From NCBI GenBank assembly GCA_012518215.1, contig JAAYSV010000015.1, forward strand, positions 1 through 52,972: a stretch of 52,972 bases of DNA, written 5' to 3'. The DNA comes from Bacillota bacterium (lineage in GTDB: Bacteria; Bacillota; Dethiobacteria; DTU022; PWGO01). Below the pieces are notes generated by a model that was given only the letters and a program-made list of their open reading frames with translations, had not been told where the DNA came from and ran no database searches. This document shows, one piece after another, positions 6,381-52,425 of this stretch (positions are counted from its first letter, which is position 1; each line of letters opens with the position of its first letter). Made by a program: the position numbers and the translations under genes.

Positions 6381-6414
6381 TACTTGCCGCTATACAGAAT
6401 AGGAGTGAAAATAG

Positions 6415-7377
6415 ATGGGTAACAAATTGATTGTTACCTCCTCGCCGCACATTCGCACGGTGGATTCCATCAAAAGTGTCATGGTCGATGTACTGACTGC
6501 TCTTCTGCCGGTGGCCGCAGCAGCCGTGTTGTTGTTCGGTTACCGGGCACTGGTAACCATGTTGGTGGGGATGGCCGCGGCAATGATAACCGAAGCACTG
6601 ATTCTCAGAAAGTGGGATATCTTCGGTGACGGCAGTGCAGCTGTAACGGGGTTGCTTCTGGCGATGACCCTTCCGGCCAATGCTCCGTGGTGGATGGTTC
6701 TCGTCGGATCTGCCGTGGCTATCATCATTGGCAAACAGGTTTATGGAGGTATCGGGCAGAACATTTTCAACCCCGCCCTGGTGGGAAGGGCCGTGCTCGT
6801 TGTTTCCTGGAGCTCCCACATGGCCGGAGGTATCTGGCCTGTCCCCAAAGCATTTGATTTTTTGGCCGATGTGATCACTTCGGCCACCCCGCTGGCCATG
6901 GAACAGGCGGAAGTTGCCAGGATATCCCTGGGGGATCTGTTCTATGGAAATGTAGCCGGTGCTCTGGGGGAAACCTCGGCGGTCGCCTTGATTCTGGGTG
7001 GAATCTGGCTGCTTTACAAGGGGCATATCGACTGGCGCGTTCCCTTCTTTTATCTGGGAACCGTATTTGTGATGGGGGCGGCACTGGGGGGGGGTTTTTA
7101 CGGGAATGCTTATCTGACCGGTGCGTTCCATCTTCTTGCCGGTGGCGTGATGTTCGGGGCTATCTTCATGGCTACCGATATGGTTACCTCTCCGGTAACG
7201 CGCCTGGGCAAGGTAATCTTCGGCGTCGGATGCGGGGCCATCACCATGCTCGTGCGTCTTTTCGGGGTTTTCCCCGAAGGCGTCACCTTTGCTATCCTGA
7301 TCATGAACGCCTTGACACCGATTATAGACAAATATACCGTTCCCAAGAAATTCGGGGAGGTGGAACGTCATGAATAA
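6415..7377 (+). CDS. rnfD: Rnf complex subunit D (covalent-FMN membrane subunit)
   Basis: Integral membrane subunit with about 9-10 hydrophobic helices in 320 residues. It is homologous to NqrB and carries covalently bound FMN. The expected attachment site is TSATPL, where Thr158 lies in the S/T-x-A-T context recognised by ApbE-type flavin transferases. The transferase gene apbE lies about 1.5 kb beyond the end of the operon. The start has AGGAG 9 bases upstream. The 3' end overlaps the rnfG start by 8 bases (ATGAATAA), implying translational coupling. Confidence 0.96.
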   Translation: MGNKLIVTSSPHIRTVDSIKSVMVDVLTALLPVAAAAVLLFGYRALVTMLVGMAAAMITEALILRKWDIFGDGSAAVTGLLLAMTLPANAPWWMVLVGSAVAIIIGKQVYGGIGQNIFNPALVGRAVLVVSWSSHMAGGIWPVPKAFDFLADVITSATPLAMEQAEVARISLGDLFYGNVAGALGETSAVALILGGIWLLYKGHIDWRVPFFYLGTVFVMGAALGGGFYGNAYLTGAFHLLAGGVMFGAIFMATDMVTSPVTRLGKVIFGVGCGAITMLVRLFGVFPEGVTFAILIMNALTPIIDKYTVPKKFGEVERHE

Positions 7378-7921
7378 CATCGTCAAGATGACTCTCATCC
7401 TGGCCCTGGTAGGTGCTCTGTCCGGATTGTTGCTGACAGGAGCGAATCTGTTGACTGCCCCTGTGCTGGAATACAATACCCTGCAACAGAAGATGGAGCT
7501 GTTGCAAGAGTTCTTTCCCGAAGCCGAGGAGACCCTGACGGAAGAGATCGGGGGAATATTGTTTGATGTGGTCAGCGACCAGGAAGGTGAATTCCTGGGA
7601 ATCATGGCTCTTGCAGATGCTGCCGGCTATGGCGGAACGATCAAGTATTATCTGGCTGTCGGGAAAGACAGTTGCATCAGGGGTATCCACGTGATTGAAC
7701 ACGCCGAGTCACCCGGGATCGGGGATGTGATCGAAGACCCGGTATTTTTGGAAAAGCTGGCGGGAAAAAACATCTCGGAATCGTTTGTTATCGGGGAGGA
7801 CATCGATACGGTGACCGGAGCAACCATTTCTACCACTGCATTTTTACAATCCGTGGGCGATGCCGCAGGCCATGCTGCCGATCTGTACAAAGGCCTTGAT
7901 CCGGGCAGCAGCCCCGAGTAA
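7370..7921 (+). CDS. rnfG: Rnf complex subunit G (covalent-FMN subunit)
   Basis: Single-pass membrane protein with an extracytoplasmic FMN-binding domain (NqrC/RnfG family, 183 residues). Residues about 7-27 form the membrane anchor. VTGATIST contains the SGAT-like flavinylation site with Thr152 as acceptor, a second substrate for ApbE. The upstream HAESPG segment is also typical of the FMN-binding domain. The start codon lies inside the rnfD stop region, so translation is coupled. It is followed by rnfE after 31 bases. Confidence 0.96.
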   Translation: MNNIVKMTLILALVGALSGLLLTGANLLTAPVLEYNTLQQKMELLQEFFPEAEETLTEEIGGILFDVVSDQEGEFLGIMALADAAGYGGTIKYYLAVGKDSCIRGIHVIEHAESPGIGDVIEDPVFLEKLAGKNISESFVIGEDIDTVTGATISTTAFLQSVGDAAGHAADLYKGLDPGSSPE

Positions 7922-7952
7922 CGGTGGTATTTGAAGTTTTGGGGGTGAAAAG

Positions 7953-8555
7953 ATGAACATATATCTTCAGGATCTAACACGAGGCATCATCAAGGAGAAC
8001 CCGACTTTCCGCCTGGTTCTTGGGATGTGCCCTGTTCTTGGTGTCACGGTTACGGCCAAGGGAGGTGTGGGCATGGGCCTGGCCACGATGGCAGTGTTGA
8101 TCTGTTCGAATGTGGTCATATCGGCCCTGCGCAATTATATCCCGAAGAGCATCAGGATTCCCATCTATATAGTAATTATTGCCACCTTTGTCACCGTGGT
8201 CGACATGTTGCTGGCTGCCTATCAGCCTGAATTGCACAAGCAACTTGGTATATTCATTCCTCTTATAGTGGTCAACTGTATCATCCTGGGTCGCGCCGAG
8301 GCCTTCGCGGGCAAAAGGCCGGTTCTGCGTTCTTTATTTGATGGGGTGGGCATCGGCATCGGTTTTACATTGGCCCTGTTTATACTGGCAGCTGTACGAG
8401 AAATACTCGGTCAGGGTACGCTTTTCGACATTGCCGTAACCGGGCCGATATTTCAACCCATGGGTATTCTGGCCCTGCCGCCGGGAGCTTTTCTGGTTCT
8501 TGGGTTGATGCTTGCGGGGGTAAATGCTCTTTTTGAAAGGTTCGGGCTGGAATAG
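7953..8555 (+). CDS. rnfE: Rnf complex subunit E
   Basis: Polytopic membrane subunit (200 residues, about six helices), homologous to NqrD. The N-terminal segment GIIKENPTFRLVLGMCPVLG contains the conserved cysteine of the first transmembrane region, and IPLIVVNCIILGRAEA holds the second. Together with the paralogous RnfA these cysteines coordinate an intramembrane iron-sulfur centre in known Rnf/Nqr structures. The start ATG has GGGGGTG 6 bases upstream. Confidence 0.96.
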   Translation: MNIYLQDLTRGIIKENPTFRLVLGMCPVLGVTVTAKGGVGMGLATMAVLICSNVVISALRNYIPKSIRIPIYIVIIATFVTVVDMLLAAYQPELHKQLGIFIPLIVVNCIILGRAEAFAGKRPVLRSLFDGVGIGIGFTLALFILAAVREILGQGTLFDIAVTGPIFQPMGILALPPGAFLVLGLMLAGVNALFERFGLE

Positions 8556-29558: not shown

Positions 29559-30281
29559 ATGAAAAAGATTTCGATGATTCTGGTTTTCTGTATGGTGTTG
29601 GGCCTGCTGTTCTCAAGCGTGGCGGCGCAAGAACCGGTGAAACTGGTTATCAGTAGCGTGGAAGGAAAGGCCGGGGAAGAGGTTGAAGTTGATTTTTCCC
29701 TGAGCGCGGATGTCAAAATTGCTGGTCTTAAATTGATGGTTAATTACAATGCCGATTTTATGGAACTTGTATATACCAACGAAGATGACGAAGAGTATGT
29801 GGAACAGAAAGCCCTTAAAGGTACTTTGGCAGCAAATGCAGACACGCCCGGTATCCTGGACATTGCTTCTGCCAACGCTACAGATTTCACTGTCAAGGCA
29901 AACAATGTGCTGTTTACGTTGAAATTTAAAATAATTGAAGGGTCCGAACTTACAGATTCAAATGTCTGGGTTGATATCGATGACGATAGCAATGAGTTCT
30001 TCGTGGCCGATGGTGCGTTAGAAGCACCGACGATTACCGAGGTTGTACAGGGTTCTGTAAGCTTGGAAGGTGACGAAGACGAAAACGGTGAAGATGAAAA
30101 CGGTGAAGACGAAAACGGTGAAGATGAAAACGGTGAAGATGAAAACGGTGAAGACGACGCCAAAGAAGACGCCAAGTCAAAGAAAGGTAGCCAGATGATG
30201 CCTTTCATGCTGCTCGGTGGTCTTCTGACCCTGATCGGTGCTGTCATGATCATGCCCTTCAGGAAGTTGAGAAGGCAGTAG
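29559..30281 (+). CDS. membrane-anchored single-cohesin protein with acidic repeat stalk
   Basis: A 240-residue predicted surface protein: signal peptide (residues 1-23, ending SVAAQ), one cohesin-type domain (about 26-170, LVISSVEGKAGEEVEVDFSL, with the pattern LKLMVNYNADFMELVY), five perfect EDENG repeats (about 173-197), a short Lys-rich stretch, and a C-terminal hydrophobic helix ending FRKLRRQ. The tail looks like a membrane anchor; no LPxTG precedes it. The ATG has a strong AGAAGGAGGAAGG ribosome site. It is related in design to the upstream two-cohesin protein, suggesting a paired function on the cell surface. Confidence 0.8.
   Translation: MKKISMILVFCMVLGLLFSSVAAQEPVKLVISSVEGKAGEEVEVDFSLSADVKIAGLKLMVNYNADFMELVYTNEDDEEYVEQKALKGTLAANADTPGILDIASANATDFTVKANNVLFTLKFKIIEGSELTDSNVWVDIDDDSNEFFVADGALEAPTITEVVQGSVSLEGDEDENGEDENGEDENGEDENGEDENGEDDAKEDAKSKKGSQMMPFMLLGGLLTLIGAVMIMPFRKLRRQ
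30075..30149 (+). repeat. 15-bp tandem repeat x5 inside the cohesin gene
   Basis: Five copies of GAAGAYGAAAACGGT (Y = C or T), in frame, encoding the EDENG stalk. The copies differ only at one synonymous position, consistent with recent expansion and possible length variation between strains. Confidence 0.9.
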
Positions 30282-35246: not shown

Positions 35247-36125
35247 ATGGATGGCAAGGATGAGCTGAAACAGGCCCTTCACCGTCTGGCCGGCGGGAAG
35301 AAAGCATCCGCAGGGGAAAAATTCTGCATTCTGGGCCTGGCCGAAACCGGAAAACTGGCCCGCCGTTTTGAAAAGACTGTCAAACAGATTGAAATAGCTG
35401 CTCTGCAGCATGGGTTGGTGCCGGAACGTTATTTGCGAAACATGGGGACTGTCGGCCCGGAGGGCCAGTTGAAACTGCTCCTCTCGGAAGTAGCGGTGGT
35501 CGGTCTCGGTGGGTTGGGGGGCCTGGCCTCTGAATTGCTGGCGCGGATGGGCGTGGGGTCTCTGATTCTTGTCGATGGCGATAAATTTACTGAATCCAAC
35601 CTGAACCGCCAGATCGGGGCTGCCGAGTCCAGCCTGGGGATGAACAAGGCCCTGGTTGCACAGCGTCGCATCGGGCAGATAAACAGTGCCGTGGAAGTGC
35701 GGGCTGTCCCCGATTATGTTGGAAAAGCCGAGCTTGTGGATCTGCTTGAACACGTGCACCTGGCCATGGATTGCCTTGACAATTTGCCGGCTCGGTTTGA
35801 TCTGGAGAGTGCCTGCCAGGAAAGAAACATCCCCATGGTTCATGCGGCTATCGGGGGTTGTATGGGGCAGCTGGCCGTGATCCGTCCCGGGACTCCCCTC
35901 CTGTCCTCGATTTACGGAAACACCCGTCTGGAGGACGTCCGGTCCGGGAAAGGGCCTGGACCGGAGGCTCATCCGGGGAATCCCGCGGCAACGCCCGCTT
36001 TGATCGCTTCCTGGGAGGTGAGCGAGGCCGTAAAAATATTGCTGGGCGGGAAGGGTGTTCTCTGCAACGAACTTCTGTACCTGGATCTTCAGAACAACGA
36101 AGTGGACCGTATTGCCCTGAAATGA
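35247..36125 (+). CDS. ThiF/MoeB/HesA family E1-like adenylyltransferase
   Basis: A 292-residue E1-like enzyme expected to adenylate the C-terminal glycine of a ubiquitin-like sulfur carrier. VVGLGGLGGLASELLARMGVG is the ATP-binding Rossmann loop, DGDKFTESNLNRQI the DxDxVxxSNLNRQ motif, and DCLDNLPARF the region after the Mg-binding Asp. The pair of CxxC zinc motifs of classical MoeB is not obvious. The first 75 residues are helical and unusual for ThiF. Its partner could be ThiS or MoaD; neither is in the window, although the molybdopterin operon 10 kb away makes MoaD plausible. Confidence 0.82.
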   Translation: MDGKDELKQALHRLAGGKKASAGEKFCILGLAETGKLARRFEKTVKQIEIAALQHGLVPERYLRNMGTVGPEGQLKLLLSEVAVVGLGGLGGLASELLARMGVGSLILVDGDKFTESNLNRQIGAAESSLGMNKALVAQRRIGQINSAVEVRAVPDYVGKAELVDLLEHVHLAMDCLDNLPARFDLESACQERNIPMVHAAIGGCMGQLAVIRPGTPLLSSIYGNTRLEDVRSGKGPGPEAHPGNPAATPALIASWEVSEAVKILLGGKGVLCNELLYLDLQNNEVDRIALK

Positions 36126-36306
36126 TCATTCCCTTTTTGATCATTCGGTTGGTAAAAGACTGCCGTTTTCCCATCGACTGCCTCCGCCAGATTTCTGCCA
36201 ACCATTATCATCCTTTTTTTCCGGTGGAAAGGTAAAGCCTTCATCGGTTCTGCCCGTGGCAGGGTTTTCTACATGCCCGGAAGAACGATCTACTGCCGAT
36301 GATTTC

Positions 36307-36335
36307 TTGACAAAACGGCTTATTATTTCTATAAT
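36307..36335 (+). promoter_or_regulatory. consensus sigma-A promoter of the leuS leader
   Basis: TTGACA (36307-36312), exactly 17 bases, TATAAT (36330-36335): a perfect consensus promoter. Transcription should start near 36342, about 40 bases before T-box stem I, and includes the embedded tRNA. Confidence 0.9.
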
Positions 36336-36556
36336 GTTTAAGGATTCACCAACAATTTGACGGTTTATGCAGAAAGCTTCCATGAAGGGGATCAGTACGC
36401 AGGCCAGCCTTTGCAGAGAGCCGGTGGTCGGTGCAAATCGGCAGGCGAACTTGCTGAACTCGCCCCGGAGAACCGGTTGTGAAAACTTGTTACAGGCGGT
36501 AATGACCGGCGTAGGACGGCGTTAACGGCATGAAGAGAGGGCAAAGAAAATGTTGT

Positions 36557-36631
36557 GGGGCTGTGGCGCAGAGGGAGCGCGCTTCCTTGGCATGGAAGAG
36601 GCCGCGGGTTCAAGTCCCGCCAGCTCCACCA
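36557..36631 (+). tRNA. tRNA-Ala (anticodon GGC), embedded in the T-box leader
   Basis: A complete 75-base cloverleaf. Acceptor GGGGCTG/CAGCTCC with a G3-U70 wobble (36559-36625), the alanine identity pair. D-stem GCGC/GCGC with a 7-base loop, anticodon stem CTTCC/GGAAG with loop TTGGCAT (anticodon GGC at 36589-36591), 5-base variable loop, T-stem GCGGG/CCCGC with loop TTCAAGT, discriminator A and encoded CCA. G18, G19, the G15-C48 pair and T54-T55-C56 are present, so it should fold and be charged by AlaRS. Flanks pair: AATG (36549-36552) with CATT (36630-36633) and GGCAAAG (36540-36546) with CTTTACC (36635-36641), one mismatch. Confidence 0.93.
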
Positions 36632-36665
36632 TTGCTTTACCAATGAGGGTGGTAACACGGGCCGA

Positions 36666-36695
36666 GCTCGTCCCTGGAGGGACGGGCGTTTTATT
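36666..36695 (+). terminator. T-box-controlled terminator of leuS
   Basis: GCTCGTCCC and GGGACGGGC form a 9-bp stem around TGGA, followed by GTTTTATT. The 5' arm overlaps the sequence that pairs with AGGG of the antiterminator, so the two forms exclude each other. Confidence 0.88.
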
Positions 36696-36724
36696 ATAAA
36701 TATTTTCGCAGGGGGATTGAACAG

Positions 36725-39211
36725 ATGGCGGATTACAAACCCGGAATTATTGAACCAAAATGGCAAAAATATTGGGCAGCGCATGACCTTGACCGGTCGG
36801 AAAAAGATCCGTCCAGGCCAAAATATTACGTTCTGGAGATGTTTCCCTATCCTTCGGGGAAATTGCATATGGGTCATATGCGTGTGTATTCCATCGGTGA
36901 TGTGCTGGCCCGTTATTTGAGGATGAAGGGATACAATGTTCTTCATCCGATGGGCTGGGATGCATTCGGCTTGCCGGCCGAGAACGCTGCTATAACCAAC
37001 AAGGTCAATCCCGCCGAATGGGTGGCGCACAATATCGAACAGATGAAAGAACAGCAGAACAGTCTGGGCATAAGCTACGACTGGAGCAGGGAGATAACGA
37101 CCAGTCTTCCCGATTATTATCGCTGGACCCAGTGGTTATTCCTCCTCTTTTACAAACGCGGGCTGGCTTACCGCAAGAAGTCTTCCATCAACTGGTGCCC
37201 GGAATGCCTGACCGTGCTTGCCAACGAACAGGTTGAAGGGGGGCTATGCTGGCGGTGTGCTTGTGAAGTGGAGACCCGTGAACTGGAACAGTGGTTTTTG
37301 CGTATCACCGATTATGCCGACCGTCTTCTGGAGGATCTGGATCTGCTTGAAGACTGGCCCGAGCGTGTCAAGGTAATGCAGCAAAACTGGATCGGGCGCA
37401 GTGAAGGTACGGAGATAGTGTTCCCGCTGAAGGAATTCCCCGGGGAATCTGTAAAAGTCTTCACGACTCGTCCTGACACTCTCTACGGGGTTACTTACAT
37501 GGTACTGGCACCCGAGCACCCCCTTGTGAACCACCTCGTGGAAGGCACTTCCCGTGAAACTGAAATCAAATCTTTCGTGAAAAAAATGAAACAGAAAACG
37601 GAAATCGAGAGGACATCTGCCGAAACGGAAAAAATAGGCCTTTTCACGGGTAGAAGTGCGTTGAATCCCGTGAATGGAGAGGAAGTTCCCATCCTGGTGG
37701 GGAACTATGTACTGATGGGTTATGGAACGGGCGCTGTCATGGGTGTACCTGCCCATGACCAACGGGACTTTCTCTTCGCCAGGAAATACGGTCTGCCAGT
37801 CAAGGTAGTCATCACCCCGCGGGAAACCGTTCTCGGCCCGGACATGGAAGAAGCATTCGAGGATCCCGGTTACCTGATCAACTCCGGTCCTTTTGACGGC
37901 CTGTTTTATGAAGACGCCCAGGAGAAGATCACGCTGTTCCTGGCCGAGAAAGGGATGGGAGGGTTCAAGACTTCTTACCGTCTGCGCGACTGGCTCATAT
38001 CGCGTCAGCGTTACTGGGGTGCCCCCATTCCCGTCATTTACTGCGAAAAATGCGGTGTTCTGCCACTGCGGGAAGAAGATCTTCCCGTATTGCTTCCCGA
38101 AGATGTGGAACTGTCCGGGGACCGGGTGCCTTCACTTTCACATTATCCCTCTTTCGTCGATACAGAATGTTACCGTTGCGGCGGCAAGGCCCGTCGCGAG
38201 ACGGACACGCTGGATACCTTCATGTGTTCATCCTGGTATTTTTTGAGGTACGCCGATCCACGGAATGGCGAGGCTGCTTTTTCACCCGGGGAAGCCAACT
38301 ACTGGATGCCTGTTGACCAGTATATCGGTGGCATAGAACATGCGGTGATGCATTTGCTCTACGCCCGGTTTTTCACCAAGGTTTTACATGATGCCGGCCT
38401 GTGCGAGGCCGTGGAACCCTTCAAGAGGCTCCTGGCCCAGGGGATGGTCTACAAGGACGGTTTCAAGATGTCCAAGTCAAAGGGCAACGTGGTCACCCCG
38501 GACGAGATCATTGAAAAATACGGGGCGGACACGGGTCGGATGTTCATCCTCTTTGCCTCCCCTCCGGAAAGAGATCTGGAGTGGAGTGACCGCGGGGCGG
38601 AGGGTTGCTATCGTTTCTTGCGCCGCGTCTGGCGTCTGATCGATCAGTACGGTACCCCTGCCCATCCGGACACCGGATCTGTACTACCCGGAAAAGAAGA
38701 AAGTGATCTGCACCATGCTGTTCATTCAACCATAAAGAAAGTGACAGATGATATCGGTGCACGGTTCAGTTTCAACACCGCCATCAGTGCCATCATGGAA
38801 CTGGTGAATTCGACTTACGATTACCTGCGGAAGAAAGAGAGTCTTTCGCCGATCGAAAATATTTACCGGGAAGGATTGACCGAGGCCCTGGAAACAATCG
38901 TCATCCTTCTCTCTCCCTTTGCTCCCCATCTGGCCGAGGAATGCTGGGGCAAACTCGGTTATACGGACAGCGTTCACCTTCAAAGTTGGCCCGTACATGA
39001 TCGCGACAGTCTTCGCGTTGATGAAGTGGAGATCGTCGTGCAGGTCAACGGTAAACTGAGAGCCAAACTGATGGTTTCGGCGGAGCACTCCAAGGAGGAA
39101 TTGGTGGAGGCGGCCTGCGCCGAGGAGAAAATCCGTCCCTACATCGATGGGAAGGAAATTGTCAGAACAATAGCCGTCCCCGGCAAACTGGTCAACCTGG
39201 TTGTCAAATGA
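36725..39211 (+). CDS. leuS: leucyl-tRNA synthetase
   Basis: Class I synthetase charging tRNA-Leu, 828 residues, typical bacterial LeuRS. HIGH signature as HMGH in YPSGKLHMGHMRVY (near residues 49-52), zinc-type cysteines CPECLTVL and CWRCACE, CP1 editing domain with TTRPDTLYGVTYMVLAPEHPL and the TGAVMGVPAHDQRD motif, then KMSKS in FKMSKSKGNVV (near 580). GGGGGA lies 9 bases before the ATG. Expression should be raised when leucyl-tRNA charging falls, through the T-box leader. Confidence 0.97.
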   Translation: MADYKPGIIEPKWQKYWAAHDLDRSEKDPSRPKYYVLEMFPYPSGKLHMGHMRVYSIGDVLARYLRMKGYNVLHPMGWDAFGLPAENAAITNKVNPAEWVAHNIEQMKEQQNSLGISYDWSREITTSLPDYYRWTQWLFLLFYKRGLAYRKKSSINWCPECLTVLANEQVEGGLCWRCACEVETRELEQWFLRITDYADRLLEDLDLLEDWPERVKVMQQNWIGRSEGTEIVFPLKEFPGESVKVFTTRPDTLYGVTYMVLAPEHPLVNHLVEGTSRETEIKSFVKKMKQKTEIERTSAETEKIGLFTGRSALNPVNGEEVPILVGNYVLMGYGTGAVMGVPAHDQRDFLFARKYGLPVKVVITPRETVLGPDMEEAFEDPGYLINSGPFDGLFYEDAQEKITLFLAEKGMGGFKTSYRLRDWLISRQRYWGAPIPVIYCEKCGVLPLREEDLPVLLPEDVELSGDRVPSLSHYPSFVDTECYRCGGKARRETDTLDTFMCSSWYFLRYADPRNGEAAFSPGEANYWMPVDQYIGGIEHAVMHLLYARFFTKVLHDAGLCEAVEPFKRLLAQGMVYKDGFKMSKSKGNVVTPDEIIEKYGADTGRMFILFASPPERDLEWSDRGAEGCYRFLRRVWRLIDQYGTPAHPDTGSVLPGKEESDLHHAVHSTIKKVTDDIGARFSFNTAISAIMELVNSTYDYLRKKESLSPIENIYREGLTEALETIVILLSPFAPHLAEECWGKLGYTDSVHLQSWPVHDRDSLRVDEVEIVVQVNGKLRAKLMVSAEHSKEELVEAACAEEKIRPYIDGKEIVRTIAVPGKLVNLVVK

Positions 39212-52282: not shown

Positions 52283-52294
52283 CCCTCGATTTCA

Positions 52295-52399
52295 GCTGAC
52301 GTTCTCCTTTCCAATAGCGGGAGGCGGGGGGATTTCTCCCCCGGCCCAGACCTTTAACCGTAACTTCAAGAAGCTGTAGGTTTGCAGGTTCGGAGCAGC
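52295..52399 (-). promoter_or_regulatory. Moco/Tuco-type riboswitch aptamer
   Basis: Leader of the cofactor operon. On the minus strand GCTG (52399-52396) closes against CAGC (52298-52295). Inside lie CTCCGA, AAAGGTCTGGGCCGG, a GGGGGA-GAAA-TCCCCC hairpin, GCCTCCCGC and GGAAAGGAGAACG, which match my recollection of the Moco RNA motif (RF01055). Position before moeA and an adjoining terminator support the call. Whether it prefers molybdenum or tungsten cofactor cannot be told by eye. Confidence 0.7.
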
Positions 52400-52425
52400 C
52401 GTATTGTTCATTTGCTGTCGCCATC

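Follow-up and report, generated by a model that had tools for sequence, protein, structure and literature searches.

A leucine T-box leader of leuS with a tRNA-Ala(GGC) gene capping stem III, recurring in several bacterial phyla

The leader of leuS described here is a leucine T-box riboswitch in which a complete tRNA-Ala(GGC) gene caps stem III, and the base of this helix persists together with the conserved sequences flanking it. We consider it likely that the leader does two jobs: it would attenuate leuS as a leucine T-box and at the same time be the precursor of the only tRNA-Ala(GGC) detected in the cell. It is confirmed as a deeply conserved variant of a known riboswitch, and its architecture is secure. 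The helix that carries the tRNA covaries, the tRNA is single-copy, and in some lineages the T-box has decayed around a retained tRNA. Hereinafter, the window is the whole stretch of DNA analysed (52,972 nucleotides, contig JAAYSV010000015.1 of a Bacillota bacterium); the leader and leuS are on the forward strand.

The leader starts from a promoter TTGACA-17-TATAAT (36307-36335) that agrees with the consensus at 12 of 12 positions and is the sole promoter-like site within 35900-36760. The Rfam model RF00230 matches at 36373-36678 upstream of leuS over its full length (model positions 1-219 of 219) with 108 bits, above the curated cut-off of 93, and an E-value of 5e-23. Its alignment places stem I at 36379-36471, stem II at 36474-36508 and the stem IIA/B region at 36510-36521. 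The specifier CUC (Leu) is found at 36459-36461 in the sequence GAA-CTC-G; GAACTC was recovered in 118 of 132 homologues. The specifier fits the downstream leuS, and the cognate tRNA-Leu(GAG) is present in the window's genome. The T-box sequence AGGGTGGTAACACGG (36646-36660, found both by sequence and by RF00230) contains a UGGU bulge at 36650-36653 which matches the ACCA end of this tRNA-Leu(GAG). The intrinsic terminator (36666-36695) consists of a stem at 36666-36687 and a T-run; it is the sole terminator-like site within 35900-36760 and lies 3' of the tRNA and before leuS, which occupies 36725-39211 and encodes a leucyl-tRNA synthetase recognised by its LeuRS domains. Thus, the single consensus promoter, the stem I with a CTC leucine specifier, and the antiterminator and terminator followed by leuS, all noticed in a preliminary description of this DNA, hold, and the window has no promoter or terminator that would isolate the tRNA from the leader. 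The fold energy of the leader or of the local region gave no signal (z of the local fold -0.33).

Seven other T-boxes were found in the window's genome, all without an embedded tRNA. Two further features of the window can be mentioned: a molybdenum/tungsten cofactor riboswitch on the minus strand (52288-52407; RF01055, 56.9 bits at a cut-off of 36) and an open reading frame at 29559-30281 with a run of GEDEN repeats near the C-terminus, the start of which resembles that of a secreted protein.

The claim that a complete tRNA-Ala(GGC) lies in the leuS T-box was verified with models of both elements. ARAGORN reads tRNA-Ala(ggc) at 36557-36631 as the sole tRNA of the window, and RF00005 matches at 36557-36628 with 67.7 bits, both inside the RF00230 match; so the tRNA and T-box models both recognise the leader. 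The G3-U70 pair and the CCA end reported earlier are both present, as is A73. Among 132 homologues, the embedded tRNA-Ala(GGC) keeps G3-U70 and A73 in all 132, and 20 have no encoded CCA. By every sign that can be read from its sequence, the embedded tRNA appears to be a functional gene. A pattern for tRNA-Ala(GGC) matches in 47 genomes of the order, exactly once in each. Of the 40 tRNAs of the window's genome, the embedded one is the only Ala(GGC), although a second copy may have been missed in an assembly that is 96.9% complete; the other alanine tRNA found has the anticodon CGC. A tRNA-Ala(UGC) was not found among these 40, presumably because the rRNA operons are unassembled.

Several more special roles of the tRNA were considered and rejected. 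A cis-ligand mechanism, in which the embedded ACCA pairs with the UGGU bulge, fails as a general mechanism in view of the 20 homologues without CCA. The embedded tRNA cannot read its own stem I either, as the specifier CUC is not an alanine codon; the GCC that follows CUC in the window is replaced by GTC or ATC in relatives. A special RNase P context at bases -2/-1 before the tRNA was likewise dropped: GT occupies this place in 50 of 132 embedded tRNAs and in 9 of 40 tRNAs of the window's own genome, and these frequencies are not clearly distinctive.

The preliminary description stated that the tRNA “replaces stem III”. The position is correct; the wording is imprecise, since the base of the helix is retained. 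In the RF00230 alignment the arms of stem III, GGCAAAG (36540-36546) and CTTTACC (36635-36641), are separated by an insert of 85 nt; both arms also have comparative support. The helix is preceded by the purine string GAGAG (36535-36539), which corresponds to RRRxG, and followed by AA (36642-36643). The RAGNG motif occurs in 127 of 132 homologues, and 121 of the 132 have AA in the same position. The base of stem III, RRRxG and AA are known as part of the domain that senses aminoacylation, and the stem and loop are variable (PMC7583486).

The evidence for this helix is comparative and does not come from the window's helix by itself, which is not significant against shuffles (p 0.11). When the arms are anchored at RRRxG and AA, 232 of 335 cells (69%) are paired, versus 54% with the 3' arms exchanged among the homologues, an exchange that preserves composition but not relatedness. 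No permutation out of 5000 gave as high a value (z about 8), and several pair types occur at every one of the five positions. A free-register comparison of 60 loci, thinned to limit similarity, gives a mean helix score of 15.75 versus 12.06 (z 11.6). Since the exchange of arms ignores relatedness, a part of the excess may reflect shared descent; the thinning reduces this effect. The proposed check of covariation in relatives therefore gave a positive answer, partner arms pairing better than exchanged ones, and the pairing of GGCAAAG with CTTTACC is borne out in this comparative sense. Eight of nine homologues that lack a T-box score at background for the helix, which indicates that the helix belongs with the T-box rather than with the tRNA. 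The further pairs suggested between the acceptor stem and this helix (AATG with CATT, GT with AC) do occur in the local minimum-energy fold of the window; as a conserved feature they fail, because they use the CCA, absent in 20 of 132 homologues, and the variable bases -2/-1. Consequently, the homologues do not conserve a nearly continuous passage from the acceptor stem into the leader.

A search for the leader in 100 related genomes gave long matches in the window's family and in a second family of the same order. In each of the 29 related leaders read, ARAGORN finds tRNA-Ala(GGC) in the same position, so no relative among them has the tRNA apart from the leader, and the T-box model spans the embedded tRNA in all 10 leaders tested. 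A broader search used a pattern that joins the tRNA T-arm to the T-box sequence. In the order, 37 of 71 genomes contain a match; among sampled genomes the figures are 83 of 399 for the phylum and 27 of 301 for the Chloroflexota sample. These counts are approximate, as the pattern produced at least one spurious match (G287) and missed some true cases (G173).

The scan of public genomes with the same pattern, one genome per species, gave at least 120 matches. Among the 120 listed, 97 overlap a tRNA according to ARAGORN: 94 Ala(GGC), one Ala(CGC), one Ala(TGC) and one Thr. LeuRS is downstream in 89 of these 97, and several matches listed without it are cut off by the ends of the locus or contig. 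The loci with tRNA-Thr (L173) and tRNA-Ala(TGC) (L184), which have no LeuRS downstream, are probably chance matches of the pattern. The variant from Anaerolineales (L170) has an embedded tRNA-Ala read with the anticodon CGC, with leuS still downstream. Record titles among the matches listed name Bacillota, Ktedonobacteria, Thermomicrobia, Anaerolineae, Armatimonadetes, Atribacteria, Caldisericota and Coprothermobacterota, although a metagenome bin may carry a wrong title. Cultured species such as Desulfofundulus thermosubterraneus, Syntrophomonas palmitatica and Tengunoibacter tsumagoiensis are among the carriers. Of eight diverse loci tested from distant phyla, seven have a T-box match that spans the tRNA, with E-values from 3e-9 to 1e-18 and scores short of the curated cut-off; in the eighth (L114) the only T-box match is weak and lies upstream of the tRNA. 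The recurrence of the arrangement in bacteria of several phyla marks it as old and conserved.

A less biased count was obtained from 101 genomes drawn evenly from the phylum, in 98 of which LeuRS was located. Rfam detects a T-box in 44 of the 80 leuS upstream regions read; 18 of the 44 enclose a tRNA, in all 18 cases Ala(GGC), and 26 are T-box-only. One genome of this sample (G179) matches the pattern farther upstream than the stretch examined. A T-box with the tRNA measures 260-322 nt and one without it 168-258 nt, apart from a single tRNA-less case of 413 nt.

In Desulfotomaculum-like loci (L078 at 6408-8000, L090, L117, L137 and L179) leuS begins about 2 kb after the T-box and the tRNA. The first gene after the leader in L078 encodes an AMP-binding acyl-CoA synthetase, and by virtue of this position it may also be controlled by the leucine switch. 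In L304 (G165:C1:2164330-2168000) four group-II-intron-like copies with a 662-nt period lie between the T-box with its tRNA and leuS.

Two parts of the LeuRS tree (97 rows) contain the tRNA-bearing form, one rich in Chloroflexota and Thermomicrobiota and the other made up by Bacillota, and T-box-only forms are interspersed. A single clade of tRNA-bearing LeuRS was sought and not found: separating these rows from the T-box-only ones needs 12 changes, and from all others 15, against 28 on average with shuffled labels. The interspersed T-box-only leaders argue that the switch does not in general require the tRNA. We regard repeated independent insertion as unlikely, as the tRNA, its anticodon, the point of insertion and the gene are almost always the same; it is more plausible that a single old origin was followed by numerous losses, or that the unit was transferred in some cases.

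Where the tRNA and the T-box part, the tRNA stays and the riboswitch goes, as follows from a series of loci. In L225, L227, L228 and L232, which belong to two other families of the order, tRNA-Ala(GGC) is located just before leuS, and no T-box was found in the leaders of these four. L225 and L232 have the exact motif CTCGTCCCT after the tRNA and L228 the same motif with one change; it is the T-box terminator arm in the Rfam consensus. L230 (genome G001 of the window's family; positions 1-400) has lost stem I and has a degenerate T-box sequence and a strong helix around the tRNA. It is an apparent intermediate of T-box decay; its contig ends before leuS. L320, from another family of the phylum, has the terminator-arm motif and, as in the window, an rsfS-like sequence as its upstream neighbour. 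The tRNA of L229 and L231 no longer adjoins leuS within the stretch read.

We presume the following mode of operation. RNA polymerase would start after 36307-36335 and make stems I and II, which would capture tRNA-Leu(GAG). The base of stem III bearing the tRNA-Ala cloverleaf would be transcribed next, followed by the antiterminator or terminator. With uncharged tRNA-Leu leuS would be read, and with charged tRNA-Leu transcription would end near 36695. The T-box would function with the tRNA in place. RNase P and 3' trimming would free tRNA-Ala from either the terminated or the read-through RNA, and this processing would follow the attenuation decision. As the terminator is 3' of the tRNA, both RNAs contain the whole tRNA; hence the supply of tRNA-Ala should not depend on leucine, while leuS would be leucine-controlled. 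The T-box terminator would double as the terminator of the tRNA, and leader RNA that is normally wasted would give a needed product.

The minimal form of this two-job explanation is passive hitch-hiking: a single insertion would have put the tRNA into the tolerant loop of stem III, and it would be kept only as the sole Ala(GGC) gene, with no mutual influence between tRNA and switch. We lean slightly towards it. It agrees with the abundance of T-box-only leaders (26 of 44), with their scatter through the LeuRS tree, and with the fact that upon separation the tRNA and a terminator remain and the T-box is lost. No direct evidence counters it, although persistence across phyla suggests that the arrangement has no cost, perhaps even a benefit from a leucine-independent tRNA supply. 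The preliminary description proposed instead that processing and sensing could compete: a cut by RNase P would split stem I from the antiterminator, so that maturation of tRNA-Ala would lower read-through and link the supply of alanine tRNA to LeuRS. Indeed, the cleavage site at tRNA position +1 falls between stem I and the T-box bulge, and in the local fold of the window the 5' leader can pair with CCA; such pairing with the 3' RCCA is reported to impede RNase P binding at an early step (PMC9433436). However, the pairs with CCA are not conserved, cleavage may come too late since T-box attenuation is decided during transcription, and we found no sequence feature specific to competition; such competition is therefore somewhat unlikely. 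A stronger form, in which the tRNA-producing riboswitch is an ancient integrated leuS T-box inherited from an ancestor of Bacillota and Chloroflexota, and the folding or RNase P processing of tRNA-Ala provides the leucine decision with a second input or a timer, is to our mind unlikely.

Two further readings were weighed. One takes the tRNA to be independent of the leader and transcribed from a promoter of its own inside it. Promoter-like sites are found between the specifier and the tRNA in 9 of 118 homologues (1.5 expected), which suggests that some lineages may transcribe the tRNA separately, having gained a promoter for it. The window has no such site, and 104 of 118 homologues have one upstream of stem I (15.7 expected), so as a general account this is very unlikely. 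The cloverleaf could also be a structural or regulatory mimic of a tRNA that is never matured, as its fixed place within a folded regulatory domain might suggest. We find this hardly credible: no other Ala(GGC) gene was detected in any of the order's genomes tested, alanine identity is kept without exception, and the tRNA survives the loss of the T-box. The reading of the leader as both a leucine T-box and a tRNA-Ala precursor remains the one that we prefer.

The ordinary leuS T-box (RF00230) shares with this leader stem I with CUC, stem II, stem IIA/B, the succession of RRRxG, stem III and AA, the UGGN bulge, the terminator and leuS; the difference is that here a complete tRNA-Ala(GGC) caps stem III and the leader is longer. 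tRNA genes are also known from rRNA or mRNA operons, where they are co-transcribed and RNase P releases the tRNA. The present tRNA resembles these in lying within a longer transcript; unlike the tRNAs of operon spacers, it is inside a folded riboswitch sensor, between the ligand-binding stem and the terminator. We know of no other riboswitch with a needed tRNA gene inside its fold, and the present one is widespread. A review of 2020 describes unexplained insertions in every T-box domain (PMC7583486); an insertion in stem III agrees with them, whereas the inserted element here is a tRNA gene, Ala(GGC), conserved across phyla. The phrase “tRNA gene” does not occur in this review, and embedded tRNA genes are unmentioned in the searched passages of the T-box database paper. 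An open-access full-text search returned no title or abstract describing a tRNA gene inside a T-box. The observation is likely new to the literature, and an earlier mention in comparative T-box surveys is possible.

The arrangement is easily overlooked if an annotation shows the T-box and the tRNA as separate overlapping features. It demonstrates that stem III tolerates a structured insert of 75 nt while its base and flanks are kept, which fits the discriminator model of T-box structure. The timing of attenuation versus tRNA processing becomes directly testable in this leader. Finally, the loci in which the riboswitch has decayed present a clear case of a tRNA gene that outlives the regulatory RNA that carried it.
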